From positions 117,354 through 181,353 of the forward strand of contig PKVW01000021.1 of NCBI GenBank assembly GCA_003131585.1: DNA of 64,000 nt, written 5' to 3'. The notes under the pieces are model-generated. The model saw only the letters and a program-made list of their open reading frames with translations. It did no database searches and was not told the DNA's origin. The position numbers and the translations under genes were made by a program. Source of the stretch: Acidobacteriaceae bacterium (GTDB lineage: Bacteria; Acidobacteriota; Terriglobia; Terriglobales; Acidobacteriaceae). Positions 45,171-56,584 of this stretch are shown piece by piece (the first letter of the stretch is position 1; every line of letters begins with the position of its first letter).

Positions 45171-47570
45171 ATGTCGCCTCGAAGATCCGCTTCCGCGGTT
45201 CCAGTGGCCGAAATTGCCGCAGCCCTGCTGGCTCAGCCAGAAGTGGCCCCGCGGGCGCGAGTGATCGTCGGCCATGTTGCCGAACTTTTTCCCGGAGCAG
45301 CAGCTGTGGTGTACGTCATTCAGGACCAGGAGAATCCCGCTTGGACAGCAAAAGCCACGGCAGGCGAGATCACAGTCGCTCAGGTCATGGATTTTAATGC
45401 CGGCACGCTGGGAACGGTCGCTGAGAGCAGAACACTCCAGGTATTCGAAAGCGCCAGCCTGCAGCGCGAAGATTTCTCTCACTTGGACATTCGCCGCACG
45501 GCCGTGTCTCTCGCTTATGCCCCGCTCCTCGTGGATGAAACTCTGGTCGGCGCCATCGAACTGGTCGGCTCTGAGCAGCCTTTTCCAGATACGGTGTTGC
45601 AGTCGCTGAAGGAGATAGCGGAACTCGCCTCGCCGGCGATCTCTGCCGCTCTGAATTACGAGAACGAGCGCAATGTCAGCTTACAGTCCATCAGCCGTGT
45701 GACCCAGATGTATGACCTGGAAAAGGTCTTCAACTCGACACTCGAAATGAACGAGTTGCTCGAGATGATTGCCAAGAAATTTGCGGAAATGATGAACGTT
45801 CAGGGCATCAACCTGTGGATGGTCAACGGCGAGGCTCTGGAGTTGGTGAGCCAGGCAGGATTCGACGCAACCGCTTCATCCGGCACTATCCAGAAGGCGG
45901 GAGAAGGCGTTGCAGGAGATATCTCGGACAGCGGCGAATCCGTGCTGATTGACGATCCAGATGACGAACGCCTGCGGAAGCGCAATTCGGGCTTCGAAGA
46001 TAGTGCGGTGTTCTCCCTGCTGGCAGCGTCGCTGATGGAGCGCGAGCATCTGGTGGGTGTGGTGGAAGCCGTAAACCGTCTGGACGGCCTGCCGTTTGAC
46101 GAAGACGATCAGTTCCTGCTCGCCAGTATGTGTGAAACCGCCAGCAATGCCTTGCACAATGCCGACTTGCTGCAAGCGGAGCGGAAGGTGGAAGTCTTAG
46201 AGGCGCTTGTTAAGATCAGCGGCGAAATCACCTCAACGCTCGATCTGGACCGTGTGCTGCAGGCCATCGTGAACGAACCGGCCACCGTAATTCCCTATGA
46301 TAGGGCGGCGATCGCGCTGGAACAACGCGGAAGGCTGCAGATTAAGGCAGTAACCGGCGCTGTCAAAATCAATCCCCAAGACCCCGACATCGTGCGTCTT
46401 CAGAGCCTGCTGGAATGGGCGTCTCTTTCGAGCGATCCCATTCTCGTAACCCAGCGCGGAGACGAGGTCGACGACGAACGCGAAGAGACGCGGGCCAAGT
46501 TCCAAGCCTATTTTGCTCAAAGCGGGATGCGCGGGTTTCATTCTCTTCCGCTGGACGATGACGATGGGCGGGTCGGCATTCTTTCCTTCGAGAGCAGCAA
46601 TCCGCATTTCCTGAACCCCGCGCACCTGGAAATGATCAAGGTGCTGGCGGGGCAGGCCACGGTCGCGTTGCGCAACGCGTCGCTTTATCGCGAGGTGCCT
46701 TTCATCGATCTGCTCGAGCCCATTCTGGCAAGAAAGCGCAAATTCCTGGCCCTGAAGAAGGGGCGGCGGATGGTCCTCGTCGGCGCAGCAGCCCTCGTCT
46801 TGATTTTTCTTGCGGCTTTTCCGCTGCCTTTGCGTGTGGATGGTCCGGCCACAGTCGCGCCCGCCCACAGCGCGCGGGTGCAGCCCGAGGTTGCCGGGGT
46901 AGTCCAGCGCGTCCAGGTGCGTGAAGGCGACGCCGTCCACCAGGGGACCGTCTTGGCGAAGTTGGATGACTGGCAATATCGTGTCGCGCTCGCGGCCGCT
47001 CAGGCCAAGTATGAAACTGCGATTTCACAAATGAATCGGGCCCTTGCTTCTAACGAAGGGACGGAGGCGGGAATCCAGCGGGTACAGGCAGATTATTGGG
47101 GTGCGGAGGTCGGTCGCACCCGTGAAAGTCTGGAGAAAACTTTGTTGCGCACCCCCATCGATGGCCGGGTTGCCACCGCTCATATAGAAGATTTGGTGGG
47201 ACGGAACCTGAATCCCGGAGATACATTTGCCGAAGTGGTGGACACCTCGTACGCCAGCGTAGACGTGGCGGTTGATGAGCTGGACGTCGGCCTTTTAAAT
47301 CCTGGCCAGCAGGCCGCGGTGAAACTGGAAGGGCTTCCTACTCGTACCTTCCGCGCCGCAGTCACGGTTGTGAGCCCAAAGGCAGAATTGCAAGGCGACC
47401 AGCGCTTCTTCTACGCAAGGGTCCTCGTACCCAACGACGATGGCGTAATCCGCTCGGGAATGCAAGGTCGCAGCAAGATCTCGACGGGATGGGCTCCCGC
47501 GGGATGGGTCATTTTCCGGCGACCGGGCATATGGCTGTGGTCAAAGATCTGGTGGTGGCTTGGCTGGTGA
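45171..47570 (+). CDS. Triple GAF-domain protein fused to a HlyD-type membrane adaptor
   Basis: 799 residues. There are three GAF-like sensory domains at about 13-165, 188-335 and 355-505, joined by helices. A single membrane helix is at 534-552 (MVLVGAAALVLIFLAAF). The periplasmic adaptor follows from ~558 with the biotinyl-lipoyl strand GPATVAPAHSARVQPEVAGVV and GDAVHQGTVLAKLDD, plus a HlyD barrel with IDGRVATAHIEDLVG. The GAF domains lie in the cytoplasm and the adaptor in the periplasm. This fusion of ligand sensing to an export adaptor is unusual. It leads an operon with a second adaptor and the M50 fusion, 15 bp upstream of the next gene. Confidence 0.88.
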   Translation: MSPRRSASAVPVAEIAAALLAQPEVAPRARVIVGHVAELFPGAAAVVYVIQDQENPAWTAKATAGEITVAQVMDFNAGTLGTVAESRTLQVFESASLQREDFSHLDIRRTAVSLAYAPLLVDETLVGAIELVGSEQPFPDTVLQSLKEIAELASPAISAALNYENERNVSLQSISRVTQMYDLEKVFNSTLEMNELLEMIAKKFAEMMNVQGINLWMVNGEALELVSQAGFDATASSGTIQKAGEGVAGDISDSGESVLIDDPDDERLRKRNSGFEDSAVFSLLAASLMEREHLVGVVEAVNRLDGLPFDEDDQFLLASMCETASNALHNADLLQAERKVEVLEALVKISGEITSTLDLDRVLQAIVNEPATVIPYDRAAIALEQRGRLQIKAVTGAVKINPQDPDIVRLQSLLEWASLSSDPILVTQRGDEVDDEREETRAKFQAYFAQSGMRGFHSLPLDDDDGRVGILSFESSNPHFLNPAHLEMIKVLAGQATVALRNASLYREVPFIDLLEPILARKRKFLALKKGRRMVLVGAAALVLIFLAAFPLPLRVDGPATVAPAHSARVQPEVAGVVQRVQVREGDAVHQGTVLAKLDDWQYRVALAAAQAKYETAISQMNRALASNEGTEAGIQRVQADYWGAEVGRTRESLEKTLLRTPIDGRVATAHIEDLVGRNLNPGDTFAEVVDTSYASVDVAVDELDVGLLNPGQQAAVKLEGLPTRTFRAAVTVVSPKAELQGDQRFFYARVLVPNDDGVIRSGMQGRSKISTGWAPAGWVIFRRPGIWLWSKIWWWLGW

Positions 47571-47585: not shown

Positions 47586-48479
47586 ATGAAGCAAGGCATA
47601 ATGGCGCTAATGGTTCTGACTCTAACTTGCGGCGCATGCAACCGCTCGAAACAGACGTCAGTGGTGGCAGCCGCCCCGGTGCCGGCGGCGCCGGCAGCTT
47701 CGGCTGTGGGCAGCGGAACTGCCGACAGCTTTGTTGCCTCCGGCCCCGTAGTGGTGGAGAATCAGGTCGATGTCGCCGCCTTACGAGAGGGCGTTGTAGT
47801 TTCGATCCTTGCCCAGCCCGGTATCCCGGTTCATCAGGGGCAAGTCCTGGCAAAACTGGATGACCGCCAGATTTCCGCCGACCTGGACGCTGCCGCCGCC
47901 CGTGTACGGGCCCTCGAAGCGAACCTCCAGAACTGGCAAGCCGAGACCAGAGTGCTGCAAGCGGACCGCAGCCGTGCCGAAAAACTGTACCAAGCGCAGG
48001 TGATCGCCAAGGAACAGCTCGAACACGTGCAGTATAAGGAAGAGGCTGACGAGTTCGAGATACGGCGCGAAACCGAAAGCCTGAACAATGCCAAGGATGT
48101 CCAGAGGTCCCTGGAACTGGAAAGAGAAAAGACCAGCATCACCGCGCCTTTCGATGGGATCGTGGCGCGTCGTTACGTGCGCGTCGGTCAAAGGGTCTCG
48201 GTGGGCGATCGCCTCTTCTGGGTAACCGCTTTGACTCCGCTGCTGGTGAAGTTCACGCTCCCGGAACACTTTTTCGGCAAGGTCCACGAGGGCGAGCAGG
48301 TAACAGTGAGCTCGGCCGACATCTCTCGGGAAGCCAAGTACACCGCCAGAATAGTTCAGGTCAGCCCGGTCGTTGATCCATCCAGCGGCAGCATGGAAAT
48401 CCTGGCCCAGGTTATGGGCTCTGCTCCAGAACTTCGGCCTGGAATGCTGGTAAATATCAGCCTCCACGAGCACCCATGA
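47586..48479 (+). CDS. HlyD/RND-type periplasmic adaptor, probable lipoprotein
   Basis: 297 residues with an N-terminal signal segment (MKQGIMALMVLTLTCGAC). A lipobox-like C18 follows but is imperfect (C-G-A-C). The adaptor body has the lipoyl halves EGVVVSILAQPGIPVHQGQVL and SITAPFDGIVARRYVRVG, a coiled-coil hairpin between them (LQNWQAETRVLQADRSRAEK) and a barrel with SPVVDPSSGSMEILAQV. It resembles membrane-fusion proteins of efflux pumps. It sits between the GAF-HlyD and M50-HlyD genes and overlaps the latter by 4 bp (ATGA). No inner-membrane pump is encoded nearby. GAGGAAG precedes the start. Confidence 0.88.
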   Translation: MKQGIMALMVLTLTCGACNRSKQTSVVAAAPVPAAPAASAVGSGTADSFVASGPVVVENQVDVAALREGVVVSILAQPGIPVHQGQVLAKLDDRQISADLDAAAARVRALEANLQNWQAETRVLQADRSRAEKLYQAQVIAKEQLEHVQYKEEADEFEIRRETESLNNAKDVQRSLELEREKTSITAPFDGIVARRYVRVGQRVSVGDRLFWVTALTPLLVKFTLPEHFFGKVHEGEQVTVSSADISREAKYTARIVQVSPVVDPSSGSMEILAQVMGSAPELRPGMLVNISLHEHP

Positions 48480-50626: not shown

Positions 50627-50658
50627 AGAATCCGCAGCCCGCGGGACCAAATACAAAA

Positions 50659-50690
50659 GGGCCTGACTCGCAGGCCCTATTGTTATTGGA
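50659..50690. terminator. Bidirectional hairpin terminator between the M50 fusion and the small peptide gene
   Basis: GGGCCTG-ACTCG-CAGGCCC is a perfect 7-bp stem with a 5-base loop. On the - strand it is followed by TTTTGTATTT, a good U-tract for ending the small peptide transcript; on the + strand TATTGTTATT follows, weaker. It serves both converging genes. Confidence 0.75.
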
Positions 50691-50727: not shown

Positions 50728-50910
50728 TTAGGCTGGGCGTACGGCCGGGCGCACTGCCGGTCGTACCGCTGGAAGCACGGCGGGCCTGACGGCTGGACGT
50801 ATGGCCGGGCGTACGGCCGGGGTAATACTCGGGGACTGGGTCGGAGTGGCAAGGATAGCCTTCTTTACCGCGGTCCGCTGACTGATGAGAGACTTCTTTT
50901 GCATTGACAT
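50728..50910 (-). CDS. Small PAVR-repeat peptide, putative exported peptide precursor
   Basis: 60 residues from the ATG at 50910, preceded by AAAGGAG at 6-base spacing, a strong ribosome-binding site; a second ATG is two codons later. The N-terminal half (MSMQKKSLISQRTAVKK then AILATPTQSPSIT) is basic and Ser/Thr/Gln-containing. The C-terminal half is seven tetrapeptides (PAVR, PAIR, PAVR, PAVL, PAVR, PAVR, PAVR) and PA. Synonymous codons differ between units (Arg CGC/CGT/AGG/CGA; Pro CCG/CCA/CCC), so the peptide rather than the DNA repeat is conserved. It has no signal peptide or Cys. It has a sigma-54-type promoter, and lies next to the M50-HlyD export genes. The precursor role is inferred. 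Confidence 0.75.
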   Translation of the reverse strand: MSMQKKSLISQRTAVKKAILATPTQSPSITPAVRPAIRPAVRPAVLPAVRPAVRPAVRPA

Positions 50911-50958
50911 CGTGATCTCCTTTATCGGTTTGCCTTCAGCGCTTACAGCTTTCTGTAG

Positions 50959-50975
50959 AGCAACGCACGTGCCAA
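50959..50975 (-). promoter_or_regulatory. Sigma-54 promoter of the PAVR-repeat peptide gene
   Basis: On the - strand the sequence reads TTGGCACGTGCGTTGCT, matching the -24/-12 consensus YTGGCACGRNNNTTGCW at every fixed base except R. GG (-24) and GC (-12) are correctly spaced. The expected start site is near 50948, giving a ~38-base leader to the AAAGGAG and ATG at 50910. Confidence 0.85.
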
Positions 50976-51118: not shown

Positions 51119-52552
51119 TTACTTGCCAGAGACGTTAATTTTGGGTCCTTTCGCGATCTGGTATTTGCGGCACAGGTAGTGCATCTTCTGCTTGTCGATG
51201 TGCAGCAGCCGCGCGGCACCCATCTTGCTGCCTCCGGTCCGCCGCAAAGCGGCTTCCAGATACGCCACCTCGATCCTGGAGATCTCCTCATCGAACTTGA
51301 CTCCTTCCTCCGGTATGAGCAGCGACTCCTGCGAGGTCGCGCTGTTGTAGAGCATGCGTTGGGGCAGGTGCTGCACCTTGATGGTAGGCCCGTCCACCAT
51401 CAGGACCAGCCGTTGGATCAGGTTTTCGAGCTCTCGTACGTTCCCCGGCCAAGGGTCCTCCTCCAGGACTTGCACGACCTCGGGATCGAGGCGTTTGAGG
51501 GGGGCGCCATTCTGAGCACAGTAGATGCGCAGGAAATGGTCCATTAGCAGAGGAATGTCGCCTGCCCGTTCCCGCAGCGGCGGCAGCGCGATCGGCACCA
51601 CATTGATGCGGTAATAGAGGTCTTCGCGAAAACGGCCGGTGTGGACCATGTCTTCCAAGTCTTCGTTGGAGGCGGTGATGAGCCGGAAGTCGATTTTCTT
51701 GGCGGTATGCCCGCCGATCCGCATAACCGCCCGGTCCTCCAGAACTCGCAACAGTTTGGACTGCAGGGCCAAGCCCAGAGTGGCAATTTCATCCAGGAAA
51801 AGTGTGCCGGTGTGCGCCAGTTCGATGTGGCCGGCCCGGGCCGTCTTAGCGTCTGTGAATGCACCCTTTTCGTGCCCGAATAGCTCGCTCTCAATCAGGT
51901 TCTCGGGCAAGGCAGCACAGTTGATACTGACAAACGGCTTTTCGGCACGGGCGCCCAGCGACACGATCGCCCGCGCGACCAGCTCCTTCCCGGTCCCGCT
52001 CTCTCCGCGGATCACCACCGTACTGCTGCTGTCGGCGACCCGGGTAATCGCTTCATATACCCGGCGCATGGGTTCGCTGGCCCCAATCAGTTCCGCGAAG
52101 GATTGCTGCTCCGCCTTGGCGCTCAACCGGTTGCGGTACTCAACCTCCGCCCACCTCTTTTCCAACGCCCGGCCCAGGACGATGCGGACTTCCTCGAAAT
52201 TGATGGGAGCCACAAAATACTCGTCGACGGTGGCGTCCATAGCCTTGTAGCGAAGGCCCCTCCGGTTGGAGCGGGTCAAAGCCACAAGCAGCAAATCGGG
52301 CACCAAGGACCGCAACTCACTCAGGGCGGAAACCCCCTCGTCGGGGCGTTGACCGATGACATCGATGTCGAGAAGCACGGCGTCTGGCGGATGCTTCTTG
52401 ACCAGTGTGATCAGTTCATCCCAGGCGGGCAGCACGCGAAGATCATAGTCGGCGGCAAGATAGACCTCAGCCTCGGGCCGCACCAACTCGTCGGTGGTCA
52501 CGATGACAATGCTGAAACGGGAAGACAGAAACTGGGTGGTTGTGCCTGGCAT
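51119..52552 (-). CDS. Sigma-54-dependent transcriptional activator (NtrC family)
   Basis: 477 residues. The N-terminal receiver has the acceptor Asp in AVLLDIDVIG (D62), but the conserved Lys is replaced (EYFVAPIN) and the acidic pair is weak. The AAA+ domain has Walker A GESGTGKE (183-190), ELFGHEKGAFTDAKT (the sigma-54 contact loop reads GAFTDA instead of GAFTGA, 230-235) and Walker B LFLDE. The C-terminal Fis-type helix-turn-helix is GSKMGAARLLHIDKQKMHYL. It should open the promoter of the small peptide gene, which follows it on the same strand with palindromes between. GGAGG 6-7 bases before the ATG supports the start. Confidence 0.9.
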   Translation of the reverse strand: MPGTTTQFLSSRFSIVIVTTDELVRPEAEVYLAADYDLRVLPAWDELITLVKKHPPDAVLLDIDVIGQRPDEGVSALSELRSLVPDLLLVALTRSNRRGLRYKAMDATVDEYFVAPINFEEVRIVLGRALEKRWAEVEYRNRLSAKAEQQSFAELIGASEPMRRVYEAITRVADSSSTVVIRGESGTGKELVARAIVSLGARAEKPFVSINCAALPENLIESELFGHEKGAFTDAKTARAGHIELAHTGTLFLDEIATLGLALQSKLLRVLEDRAVMRIGGHTAKKIDFRLITASNEDLEDMVHTGRFREDLYYRINVVPIALPPLRERAGDIPLLMDHFLRIYCAQNGAPLKRLDPEVVQVLEEDPWPGNVRELENLIQRLVLMVDGPTIKVQHLPQRMLYNSATSQESLLIPEEGVKFDEEISRIEVAYLEAALRRTGGSKMGAARLLHIDKQKMHYLCRKYQIAKGPKINVSGK

Positions 52553-52738: not shown

Positions 52739-53095
52739 TTGTCGCAGGGAGGCCGGTTGGACATTAGCGTCCGCAAGCGATCGCAAGTACAGTTGATCCA
52801 GCTCCGGGGACAACTCCGCTTGGGCCAAGCGGTTGACGAGTTACGCCGAACAATCGATGAGGCGCTGGGGGAGAAAGATACACGTTTCGTGATCAACCTT
52901 GCTGAAGTGTCCATGATCGATTCCAGCGGCATCGGGCTGCTGGTGCGTTGCTTGGCCTCCACCAAGCAGCGCGGCGGAAGCCTCAAACTGGTTAAGCCCT
53001 CCAGTTTCGCGGTAAAGACCTTGCGGCTGGTGGGCGTTCTCAACCTGTTCGAGGTTTTCGATGACGACGACGCGGCGGTGGAGTCTTTCGCTTGA
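52739..53095 (+). CDS. STAS-domain anti-anti-sigma factor (SpoIIAA/RsbV-like)
   Basis: 118 residues from a TTG at 52739 (a second TTG at 52757, with GGGAGG 4 bases upstream, is possible). The STAS fold ends its phosphorylation loop in AEVSMIDSSGIGLLVRCL, with S62 or S63 as the phospho-site. Such proteins bind an anti-sigma kinase and release a sigma factor, or act in other partner switches. The next gene encodes the matching kinase-type ATPase, 44 bp downstream. No sigma factor gene is adjacent. Confidence 0.88.
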   Translation: MSQGGRLDISVRKRSQVQLIQLRGQLRLGQAVDELRRTIDEALGEKDTRFVINLAEVSMIDSSGIGLLVRCLASTKQRGGSLKLVKPSSFAVKTLRLVGVLNLFEVFDDDDAAVESFA

Positions 53096-53139: not shown

Positions 53140-53580
53140 ATGCCGGATGAGTTTGGCGGTGGCCCAGAAAACAGCGCATTATCGGAATTGCTCGACCTCA
53201 GCATGCCCGCCGATACCGAGGCGATGGCTGCTGTTGTGGACGCCATATCGGAAGCCTTGGCGCGGCGGGAGGTCCCCGAGCAGAAACGCCTTGAGGTTGC
53301 GTTGGCAGTTCAGGAGGCCTTGGCCAATGCAGTGGTACACGGATGTGATAACGACCCGTCAAAACAGGTCCGGTGCCGGGTAAGGTCTGATGCCCACGGC
53401 CGAATCCTAATTATCGTGACCGATCCCGGACCAGGTTTCAGTCCGGATCTTCTGTCCGACCCAAAGCGGCGTGAAAACCTGTATGCCGACCACGGACGCG
53501 GCGTTTACCTAATCCGCCAACTAATGGACGAAGTTCATTTCGAGCATAGTGGAAACGAAGTCAGGATGTGGAAGTACTGA
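53140..53580 (+). CDS. Anti-sigma-type Ser/Thr kinase (HATPase_c_2, RsbW/SpoIIAB-like)
   Basis: 146 residues with a GHKL ATPase fold: N-box [11 protein letters not shown] (E59, N63), G1 box DPGPGF (D95), and G2 [16 protein letters not shown]. RsbW-like proteins phosphorylate their STAS partner (the preceding gene) and hold or release a target. The target here is unknown; possibilities are an unlinked sigma factor or the neighbouring signalling proteins. It shares the + strand with the STAS gene and probably its transcript. The 3' end overlaps a - strand kinase fragment by about 20 bp. Confidence 0.88.
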
Positions 53581-53716
53581 TTAGGGGTCCGTCAGGGAGG
53601 AACTTCAAGGCGACAAAGCGGTGCAGCTTTACGTCTTCAGCTTTGTAGACAACACCCATCCCGCCGCCGCCGAGCTTCTCCATAATGCGATAGTGCGAGA
53701 TGGTTTGGTCGATCAT
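53561..53716 (-). pseudogene. N-terminal fragment of a Ser/Thr kinase
   Basis: The - strand encodes [20 protein letters not shown], continuing [21 protein letters not shown], and then diverges to PLISTSTS and a stop (51 residues). This is the first ~42 residues of a PD40 kinase like the one at 56584, including the ATP loop and catalytic Lys, without the rest. It looks like the remnant of a duplicated kinase gene; the tail overlaps the anti-sigma gene on the other strand. Confidence 0.8.
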
Positions 53717-53856: not shown

Positions 53857-55800
53857 CTACGGTTTGGACTCTTCCATGAGTACAACGTCGGAGTCAGTGT
53901 GGCCGCGGATCATGCCTACCTTGCTGCCGTCGAAAGACCAGTGAAAGTCGGTGATCTGTTCCGACTTGAAGTTGGTGATCTGCTTTCCCGGCGAGCCGTC
54001 GAGTGGCTGGAGCCAGAGGTTGTCAGCGTCCCGGTCGAGGAAGGGATAAACAACAGCTTTGCCATCGTGGGTGAAGCGGACACTCGCCTGGGCGGAGGGT
54101 CGTTGTTCGTCTAGGGATTTTGCATTCTGTGGAGAGTTGACTGGGAGCAATGCCACCTTCGCCTCGGTGCTGCCGTAGGATGCAATGGTTTGAAAAGCTG
54201 CCAGCTTACCGTCAGGAGAAATGTCGAATACGCTGAATACCGGGAGCTCGGAAACTCTTTCCGTCTTTCCTGCCTCCAAGGGCACCTTCACTAGTTTTCC
54301 GCCGTTGGATTCATCCCAGTAAAACACCCATTGCCCGTCGGGGGAGCACACAGCACTCTCATCATTTTTGCCATCGCTCAGCTGTTTCAGATTGCCCCCG
54401 CCCGAATCCATTCGCCAGATAGTGATGGTTTGCGTACCGCCATGTCCTCCAAGAGTGAACACGATGAAACGGCCATTCGGGCAGGAAGAAGGCTGCCCTG
54501 CCGCGCCTTCCTGGGCCGAAGTGAGCGGCGTCTGGCTGCGGGATTCAAGATTGAAAAGCTGCAAAGTGAAATTCTGCATGAAGATTATCTGCCCGTCTGG
54601 CGTCCAGGAAAAGTCAGAGACGGAAAGACCGTGAGTGAGCTGCTCAGCCTGACCGCTGCCCAAGGCCGATGCGGGAACGACGAAGAGGTTATATTGGCCT
54701 TGTGCGACGATGGCGGCCAACGTGTGTCCATCTGCGGCAAGACTGAGATCGGAATAGTCGCTTACGTCGTGAGTTACGTCTCTGGCAACGCCGTCCGGAT
54801 ACGAGATCGCTACTATTCTATTGCGGGTGTAGTTGGTTGCTTTGTCGAGAGACAGGACAAGCAAACCCTTGCCATCGGGCAGCCACGCGAGTTTATCTAG
54901 AAATCCCGATTTGGACTTAGCGAAAAGCTTTTGTTTGCCGATGAGCGGGTCGACGGCCACCAGGCCGCTAAGGGCGTCTCCGGGTTGGTGGATTGCGCAC
55001 ACGATCGTCTTGCCGTCGGGCGACCAGGCCGGGGCGCCGAAGAATTGACCCACATCCCCGATGACCAAGGTCTTCCCCTCGCCGGTTGAAAGGGAATAAA
55101 CCACCAGGCGGAACTTGCCGAATTCGGGTTCTTGATACACGACATATGCCAGACTCTGGCCGTCGGGAGAAAACGTGATGTTCGTGTCCACATTGGCGAC
55201 CAGTTTCTGCGGCGTGCCACCCAGGACTGGCGCCCGATAAAGGCTGTGGAATCCCTGGCCAACCTCCCCGCGGACAAAATAAAGATAGTTTCCATCGGGA
55301 GAGAACTGCAAACCGATGTACTGTACCGGCGCGGGAGGCATGACCTGGGTGTTGCTGTTGGTAGCGACATTGCGCAACCAAAGACCCTGCTGGCCATTCT
55401 CCTCCAACACGTTCAGGATGTATTTGCCATCGGGAGACATGGCTACCAGCTTTGCCTTGCCGGTCTCCGTGACCTTGTTGACGGAATAATTTTGAAACGG
55501 AACCGGCCGGCTGCGGGACAGGAGAGCGTAAATGCCATACGCGGCAGCCGCCACCAGCAAAATGACGATCCCGCTGGTGATGCCAAAACCCAGCTTGTGT
55601 TGGCGTGCCGCGGCCACCACCGCCGAACTGCTGGAGCTGCGCGCGGGCTGGACAACTGCCGGCGCGGAGGCAGCCGGTTCCGCGCTGCCCGCCGAAACAT
55701 GGCGGCTGGAGTCGGTGTCCCGCTTTAGCCGTTGCAGGTCGGCTCGCATCTCCGCCGCACCCTGATAGCGCAGATTGCGATCCTTCTCGAGAGCTTTGTT
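53857..55800 (-). pseudogene. 3' part of a frameshifted PD40 kinase gene (membrane helix and beta-propeller)
   Basis: About 648 residues in a frame that continues the kinase gene after a single-base shift at 55801. The segment starts [20 protein letters not shown], has a membrane helix near [20 protein letters not shown], and then PD40/TolB-like blades (for example [23 protein letters not shown]). It is the counterpart of the C-terminal half of the intact kinase at 42073-44733. It could be translated only from the internal ATG at 55749 ([12 protein letters not shown]). A single-base assembly error cannot be excluded. Confidence 0.8.
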
Positions 55801-56584
55801 GAATGATGTCTTCCAGCTTGAGTGGCACCTCGTGATTCAGGCGCACGACTGGAACGGGTATCGCGTCCAGAATGGCTTTGAAGATGACTCCCGTGCTTTC
55901 TCCGCGGAACGGCGGCGTTCCCGTCGCCACCTCGTACAACACCGCCCCGAAGGAAAACAGGTCGGTTCTGCCGTCCAGTTCCTTGGCGCGGACTTGTTCC
56001 GGCGACATGTAGCCGATCGTGCCCAGCGTCGCGCCAGGACTGGTCAAGTGTTGTTCATCCATCACGAGTGTCTGAGTGACTGCCGCAGCCATTTGGCTGG
56101 CAGAACCTCCCGGTGTAGAGACTTTCGCCAAACCGAAATCCAGAATCTTGGCGCTTCCGCGCTTGGTCACAAAAAGGTTGGCCGGCTTGATGTCACGGTG
56201 GACGATGCCCTTGGCGTGCGCCGCATCCAGAGCATCGGCAATTTCGATGGCGAGCGATAGAATCAACTCGGTTTCCAGCGGACGCCCCGCGATGCGGTGG
56301 TTCAGACTCAGCCCGTCTAGAAACTCCATGGCGATAAAAGTTTGTCCGTGTTGGTCGTCAATCTCGTAGATCGTACAAATGTTGGGATGGTTCAGTGCGG
56401 ACGCAGCCTGCGCTTCGCGCTGGAAGCGGGCGAGAGCTTGTGCATCCTTGGCAATGTCGTCCGGGAGAAACTTCAATGCGACAAAACGGTGCAGCTTAAC
56501 GTCCTCGGCCTTGTAAACCACACCCATCCCGCCTCCGCCGAGTTTCTCGAGGATGCGGTAATGCGAAATGGTTTGGCCGAACAT
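55801..56584 (-). pseudogene. 5' part of a frameshifted PD40 Ser/Thr kinase gene (kinase domain)
   Basis: The kinase domain is complete: [15 protein letters not shown]38 in [26 protein letters not shown] and [15 protein letters not shown]. At [13 protein letters not shown] the frame departs from the family (which reads [14 protein letters not shown]); removing one C from the coding-strand ATTCAACAAAG restores it. The open frame runs on out of frame to 54968, giving a nonsense tail rich in Gly/Arg. If real, the product is a soluble kinase domain without the sensor. The frameshift may instead be a sequencing error. Confidence 0.82.

Follow-up and report, generated by a model that had tools for sequence, protein, structure and literature searches.

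What is the role of a small gene whose product repeats one tetrapeptide seven times, and whose units have stayed alike in protein while their codons drifted? The gene lies in a stretch of 64,000 nucleotides from an Acidobacteriaceae bacterium (contig PKVW01000021.1, positions 117,354 to 181,353; referred to here as the window), where an earlier sequence-only reading had likened its product loosely to proline-rich antimicrobial peptides. The gene probably encodes a sigma-54-switched precursor, in which an RRE domain would read the leader, an M50 protease would cut it and the tail would exit via HlyD adaptors as a lineage-specific product. Its most likely place is among the leader-guided peptide systems, as a variant of them, and not among the proline-rich antimicrobial peptides.

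The peptide gene and its promoter

The peptide consists of the leader MSMQKKSLISQRTAVKKAILAT, a short linker and seven PA[VI][RL] units in the order PAVR PAIR PAVR PAVL PAVR PAVR PAVR, followed by a closing PA, with alanine as its last residue. Its -24/-12 element (Table 1), TGGCAC-N5-TTGCT, is perfect and starts 64 nt upstream of the ATG; the host genome has a sigma-54 gene (match at 4.1e-59), and a terminator hairpin stands downstream of the peptide stop (terminator-like sites on both strands between 50200 and 51400 number 5, against 1.1 expected). The earlier view that this is a real gene was borne out by the ribosome-binding site, the sigma-54 element, the terminator and the homologues found in related genomes; a chance ORF is rejected on the homologues, their conserved frame and the promoter.

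Table 1. Features of the peptide locus and of its surroundings in the window.
Feature	Position	Strand	Basis
GAF-HlyD fusion adaptor	45171..47570	+	Pfam/NCBIfam-type domain matches
Lone RND-type periplasmic adaptor (MFP) with no conserved pump next to it	47586..48479	+	TIGR01730, 149.7 bits (cut-off 94.9)
Predicted RRE (PqqD-like)-M50 intramembrane metalloprotease-HlyD fusion, 716 aa	48476..50626	+	Pfam/NCBIfam; fold of residues 1-115; motifs
Terminator hairpin between the two convergent genes	50658..50678	-	Detected on both strands
Precursor-like repeat peptide, 60 aa (ATG at 50910, stop at 50728)	50728..50910	-	ORF; ribosome-binding site; homologues with conserved frame
Repeat tail, seven PA[VI][RL] units + PA	50731..50820	-	Repeat analysis; codon-position mismatches
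Conserved leader, residues 1-22 (MSMQKKSLISQRTAVKKAILAT)	50845..50910	-	KKSL block and later KKA..A block
Ribosome-binding site AAAGGAG	50917..50923	-	Six bases 5' of the ATG
Sigma-54 -24/-12 promoter element TGGCACGTGCGTTGCT	50959..50974	-	10/10 consensus positions
Sigma-54 enhancer-binding response regulator	51119..52552	-	Domain match; conserved beside the peptide
STAS anti-sigma-factor antagonist, often nearby	52739..53095	+	Domain match; 15/23 long-flank loci

The sigma-54 promoter had also been proposed from the window, and the element does recur before the homologous peptide genes. At least 7 of the 10 consensus positions are present before 57 of 57 of them, where about 6.6 would be expected, and at least 8 of 10 before 49 of the 57 (about 1.6 expected), the expectations coming from shuffled upstream regions in which base content only, and not dinucleotides, is preserved. 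These elements have a fixed spacing and lie 59-107 nt upstream of the start.

A shared leader with changing tails

In Acidobacteriota, 57 distinct homologues have a common N-terminal leader, KKSLI...KKA..A. They were collected as matches to a leader profile at E below 1 in the loci examined, which by itself accounts for part of the leader's conservation. Near relatives are among them (L057, L059 and L130; L075 and L090), so their counts are not independent. Within the genus, the M50 protein encoded beside the peptide is strongly matched in 8 of 24 relatives, and a QKKSLI ORF has been found in all seven of those with readable sequence past the M50 gene (five from an unfiltered ORF list and two through a motif search); the eighth (G018, locus L009) ends at a contig edge. 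When the 57 leaders are aligned on the motif, KK and L are present in 57, S in 56 and I in 53, frequencies that are again partly by construction, and the later block keeps its two lysines (K-K) in 52 and 49 peptides, respectively, and its closing A in 45. Median identity over 1596 pairs is 0.73 in the first part of the leader, a likeness owed in part to the way the set was gathered, versus 0.18 in the tail.

Tail motifs differ by lineage (PAIK, KRLDSA, QVRGHVKT, VAKAG, NTRA, VGHSPK, LSKGGA, LAPNK and others, as well as NSPLS, NQPLLK, KMH, LGK, FQGPGG, LSGGKG and AADAGSM), and close relatives have the same tail type. Searches of Pfam and NCBIfam with eight aligned peptides gave no convincing match (best values 0.0099 for Pfam DUF826 and 0.09 in NCBIfam, one member each). 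Models of pentapeptide repeats and of wall-binding proteins matched two other relatives weakly, far under their cut-offs, and were rejected as what looks like low complexity. The family was not seen among the matches listed for titles and abstract openings of the open-licence literature, which is weak evidence of absence; the terms M50, HlyD and Acidobacteria are all absent from the main texts of PMC12710340 and PMC7470986, and Acidobacteria, HlyD and short peptide from PMC3162934 in a term search.

Two arrangements stand apart from the single gene of the window. In locus L124, three leader ORFs occur in a row between 521 and 1725 (starts at 521, 997 and 1501), each with its own sigma-54 element and all with short tails and little repeat. 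Another genome carries two modules, L047 and L068, which share a MAG accession series (G416, by matching peptides) and have tails of different types, VGHSPKV and RVQS.

Selection on the repeat units

The sequence-only reading had noted seven near-identical units with differing synonymous codons and had ascribed them to selection on the peptide. The codons are as it listed them (Arg CGC, CGT, AGG and CGA; Val GTA, GTC and GTG), and Tandem Repeats Finder detected in the window array a 12-base period with a DNA match of only 69%. Mismatches at codon positions 1, 2 and 3 number 4, 2 and 18, and adjacent units differ with a pS of 0.71 and a pN of 0.128, non-synonymous changes thus being far from as frequent as synonymous ones.

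The same pattern extends to the family. In arrays picked by protein likeness (46 of the 57 peptides, the rest having an array below score or N/X in the sequence), adjacent units gave a pooled pS of 0.57 and pN of 0.052 (pN/pS 0.09), values on which recent tandem DNA duplication is rejected family-wide as the whole cause of the likeness of units; pN was below pS in 45 of these 46 arrays, the sole exception being one without any differences. Because choosing arrays by protein likeness lowers pN, the test was repeated with arrays picked by DNA alone, which took 49 of the 57 peptides (the others left aside for the same two reasons). The period was a multiple of three in 49 of 49, and neighbouring units mismatched at 205, 100 and 794 of about 1,990 sites at codon positions 1, 2 and 3, respectively. 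Selection on the peptide is in this way upheld across the family, codons drifting at third positions while the units are kept. Some arrays nevertheless look recent, with DNA identities between neighbouring units of 1.00 (L049), 0.98 (L067) and 0.96 (L132).

Comparisons between species, in which the alignment of repeat arrays is uncertain, add a further aspect. Between the window and locus L008, the leader has a pN of 0.03 and a pS of 0.61, and the tail a pN of 0.40 and a pS of 0.76. In the pair L136 and L139 the motif differs in most units (LQGGGG versus FQGPGG), and pS is 0.80 within each array, versus 0.62 for the neighbouring M50 gene between both species. In both pairs, most unit motifs differ between the species, and synonymous differences inside an array about equal those between species. 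Because the L136 and L139 motifs differ while pS within their arrays is 0.80, the units seem, as far as their sequences can tell, to switch motif in a concerted manner at the protein level, with no homogenisation of their DNA. The high pS between units could also come from codons being chosen so as to avoid long repeats in the DNA.

The neighbouring module

The peptide gene is convergent to the gene for the RRE-M50-HlyD protein, and the gene for the sigma-54 activator lies behind it. Conservation of this arrangement was followed in 23 loci with at least 8 kb on both sides of the module (long-flank loci), gene rows being assigned by position and antisense frames set aside. The GAF-HlyD fusion was present in 23 of them, the lone adaptor in 22, the M50 protein in 23, the activator in 23 and the STAS protein in 15; no modifying enzyme, ABC transporter or RND pump is conserved, and nothing else recurs in at least 4 of the 23.

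A wider view comes from 80 named M50 loci, the best 80 of 400 matching. A leader ORF was found in 42, without exception convergent to the M50 gene and 50-429 nt beyond it, and 10 loci end within 500 nt of that gene. Among the remaining 28, the 1,500 nt that follow contain one or more short sigma-54-driven ORFs rich in Lys/Arg in 22 cases, 34.5 times the rate found in other parts of these 28 loci. The scan behind this figure demands Lys/Arg richness, is biased in consequence and recovers 25 of the 42 known leader-ORF loci. In a further 29 M50 loci from genomes of the class (L147-L175), many of them from the same organisms as the earlier loci, a leader ORF with the promoter element is present in 26, 5 of which had not been in the set before; the three loci lacking one (L148, L150 and L153) end about 150 nt or less from the M50 gene.

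The link between peptide and protease can also be seen at the level of whole genomes. Out of 399 genomes of the class, 84 have the M50 protein (E <= 1e-40) and 26 a match to the peptide profile, and all 23 genomes in which this match starts at profile position 1-3 have the M50 protein. The three peptide-profile genomes without it, G339, G380 and G396, have matches starting at positions 27, 8 and 22. The converse fails, since 61 of the 84 M50 genomes have no peptide-profile match at E <= 0.01, many of their M50 proteins being more distant relatives.

The predicted RRE domain and the protease

The N-terminus of the M50 protein is supported as an RRE domain by profile matches in relatives and by its modelled fold. 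The Pfam PqqD model matches 33 of 69 N-terminal domains (69 of the 81 available were used) at E <= 1, the best at 3.6e-7, and has no match at that threshold to the window protein's own domain. Because the full-length model was poor (pLDDT 64.5), fold comparison was confined to residues 1-115; the model of this part, built with 69 sequences, has a pLDDT of 83 and three main strands with three helices. In a Foldseek search, TbiB1 with its leader peptide took ranks 1-5 (best E 0.02, probability 1.00, TM 0.51/0.64), a modest result with no match at E <= 0.001. VIA-align 2 gave Z 9.1 to a lasso B1-leader complex (3.2 A over 83 residues) and, among other leader-binding domains, Z 7.3 to PqqD, and it also gave Z 7-8 to winged-helix parts of methyltransferases.

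The zinc-site motifs HExxH and NPLxKLDG are invariant in eight aligned M50 proteins. In further M50 loci, HExxH is found in 77 of 77 and NPLxKxDG in 75 of 77, counts that are partly by construction because the fetching patterns included NPL[IM]KLDG and the residues after HExxH. In the window protein, Pfam Peptidase_M50 falls under its cut-off (23 versus 27.2 bits, E 5.5e-5). A test on 40 of the 42 loci (L065 and L080, incomplete or oddly bounded, were left out) shows no co-variation between leader and RRE when divergence of the HlyD part is taken into account (partial correlation -0.005, reached by 1034 of 2000 permutations), and it is the HlyD part that the leader tracks most closely (0.615). 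This negative result gives the model no help, and the power of the test is low because the leader is short and nearly fixed.

A predicted route from leader to exported tail

The conserved leader and the RRE-M50-HlyD neighbour say more about the role of the gene than does the composition of its repeats. The sigma-54 RNA polymerase, driven by the neighbouring activator, would switch the peptide gene on, and the RRE at the N-terminus of the RRE-M50-HlyD protein would recognise the conserved leader. The M50 metalloprotease may then cut near the leader end, at the KKA-x-x-A-[ST] block and about residue 21, and the HlyD parts, together with the two partner adaptors, would take the tail through the envelope. 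Against this route, neither an ABC nor an RND pump is conserved next to the adaptors in the 23 long-flank loci, so that the module itself offers no account of what would drive export, and a conserved modifying enzyme is likewise absent there. Outside the cell the tail would be a lineage-specific product in which one short motif is repeated many times, and its most likely function would be that of a signal or an antagonist.

Three other roles have to be weighed for the tail. The best of them keeps processing and export as above and makes the exported tail a structural or adhesive repeat of a surface coat or biofilm matrix, a role that is unlikely but deserves consideration. It would suit the tails that are long, low-complexity arrays rich in Ala, Ser, Lys and Gly, which are frequent in the family, and the FQGPGG, LQGGGG and LSGGKG types look similar to the repeats of elastic or silk-like proteins. 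In addition, sigma-54 is linked in general with exterior functions (PMC3162934). Members with little or no repeat speak against it, both within the family (L124, L079 and L066, of 43-74 residues) and among the short KKGKKL..KPL peptides of a distant clade.

The antimicrobial comparison of the sequence-only reading agrees with the composition of the window peptide's tail, which is indeed rich in Pro and Arg, and does not extend to the family, in which many tails, judged by eye, have no Pro or Arg and only some homologues are rich in both (Pro makes up just 6.6% and Arg 5.7% of tail residues over the 57 peptides). A proline-rich or other cationic antimicrobial peptide is on these grounds improbable. 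Tails are net positive in 55 of the 57 peptides, so that a cationic role is possible for most members, but the other two, of the AADAGSM type, are strongly negative (-18 and -20), and in the 23 long-flank loci the module has no further conserved gene as a candidate for immunity. Arrays of the KPA/PAVR kind are reminiscent of histone-like proteins, for example of the KPAA arrays of AlgP, and the peptide gene stands between the M50 and activator genes in the window and in most loci examined, but a cytosolic role for the peptide, whether it binds nucleic acids, resembles histone H1 or serves as a small regulator that acts on the neighbouring activator, with the M50 protease merely degrading it, is very improbable given the neutral and acidic arrays of the same family (FQGPGG, NSPLS, AADAGSM) and a constant neighbourhood with three adaptor proteins.

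The preferred reading, a leader-guided precursor with an exported tail, would have wider consequences. Lineage-varying tails on a kept leader and kept processing genes suggest an unrecognised way of making lineage-specific secreted peptides. If this is true, a soil-common phylum has a widespread precursor family, unnamed in the sources searched, which freely changes its short repeat units and goes with a fixed machine whose predicted leader-reader, protease and export adaptor form a single chain. Such a family would offer, ready-made in nature, a test of how a leader-guided machine copes with tails that are unrelated to each other, and of the reason why units keep their protein sequence although their synonymous sites have moved far apart. 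As a tentative extension, which we regard as doubtful, it might form a separate peptide-secretion class of Acidobacteriota, in which a protease-adaptor fusion would read the leader, cut it and release a tail of multiple motif copies without an adjacent pump or modifying enzyme, each lineage keeping its own motif by protein selection despite DNA drift, as expected of identity signals read by kin.

Comparison with known peptide systems

The family is made of short precursors with a conserved leader and a variable core, and its associated enzyme has a predicted RRE domain, features that are RiPP-like. A modification enzyme in the cluster is lacking in the 23 long-flank loci, and membership in the RiPPs proper is not claimed because no such enzyme recurs (one encoded elsewhere is possible). 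Cysteine, which is found in the core of lanthipeptides, sactipeptides and other Cys-crosslinked peptides, occurs anywhere in 1 of the 57 peptides.

Among the closest systems are the daptides. Their MpaP protein has, as predicted for the window protein, an RRE N-terminal to an intramembrane site-2 protease near short ORFs with a conserved N-terminal motif, and this RRE-dependent intramembrane peptidase is stated to remove the leader (PMC10036551). The NCBIfam daptide protease model NF041824 matches residues 24-417 of the window protein at 1.5e-40 and 139.6 bits, below its cut-off of 300, and two relatives at 183.1 and 177.7 bits. In contrast with daptides, a C-terminal HlyD fusion, tandem-repeat tails and a sigma-54 element are found here, the invariant C-terminal Thr of daptides ends 1 of the 57 peptides (Ala in the window), and no further conserved gene in the 23 long-flank loci could encode daptide modifying enzymes. 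Another example is the TVGG-repeat RiPP precursor TvgA of Halomonas, also a short precursor with a repeating motif, for which the authors consider several small products likely and expect TvgD and TvgE to hydrolyse and export (PMC9062424). TvgA has one motif, modified by a radical SAM enzyme, whereas motifs here differ among lineages and no such enzyme is conserved.

The YydH/LiaK system of epipeptides (YydF) likewise has a metalloprotease beside a precursor peptide, but its model NF058609 matches weakly (22.5 bits, far below the cut-off of 225), no radical SAM gene is conserved in the 23 long-flank loci, and an HlyD fusion and a predicted RRE are present here. The linear-peptide pathway of Staphylococcus aureus reportedly consists of an intramembrane protease and an ABC exporter. 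It is like the system proposed here in that small linear peptides are released by a dedicated pathway (PMC7157817), and differs in being Gram-positive.

Distant relatives and other observations

More distant relatives have short peptides of the type MAKAKTVKKGKKLGSVKPL, and a few have arrays of their own, namely LQRAS (L097), LQRGAGV (L114) and LAKSTN (L082). M50 relatives at E <= 1e-80 occur in 22 of 396 genomes of the phylum, 9 of them outside the class. Ten loci with short flanks (L178-L187) include two with a convincing short sigma-54-driven ORF, in which the leader is different. Leaders of a different type, LTxxQrxQ[IL][KR]KxTG-like, follow sigma-54 elements in L115 (near 9062), L181 (near 1221) and L185 (near 4071), and leaders of the LTxxQrxQ type adjoin distant M50 relatives, including genomes outside the class. 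Among plasmid records, 72 match the M50 protein, none over 80% of its length, and some are named PqqD family or mpaP. Finally, on the minus strand of the window between 53857 and 56584, a Ser/Thr-kinase-like ORF (54968-56584) and a second ORF (53857-55749) resemble one gene split by a frameshift, and the ORF list holds a short second copy of the kinase N-terminus at 53561-53716.
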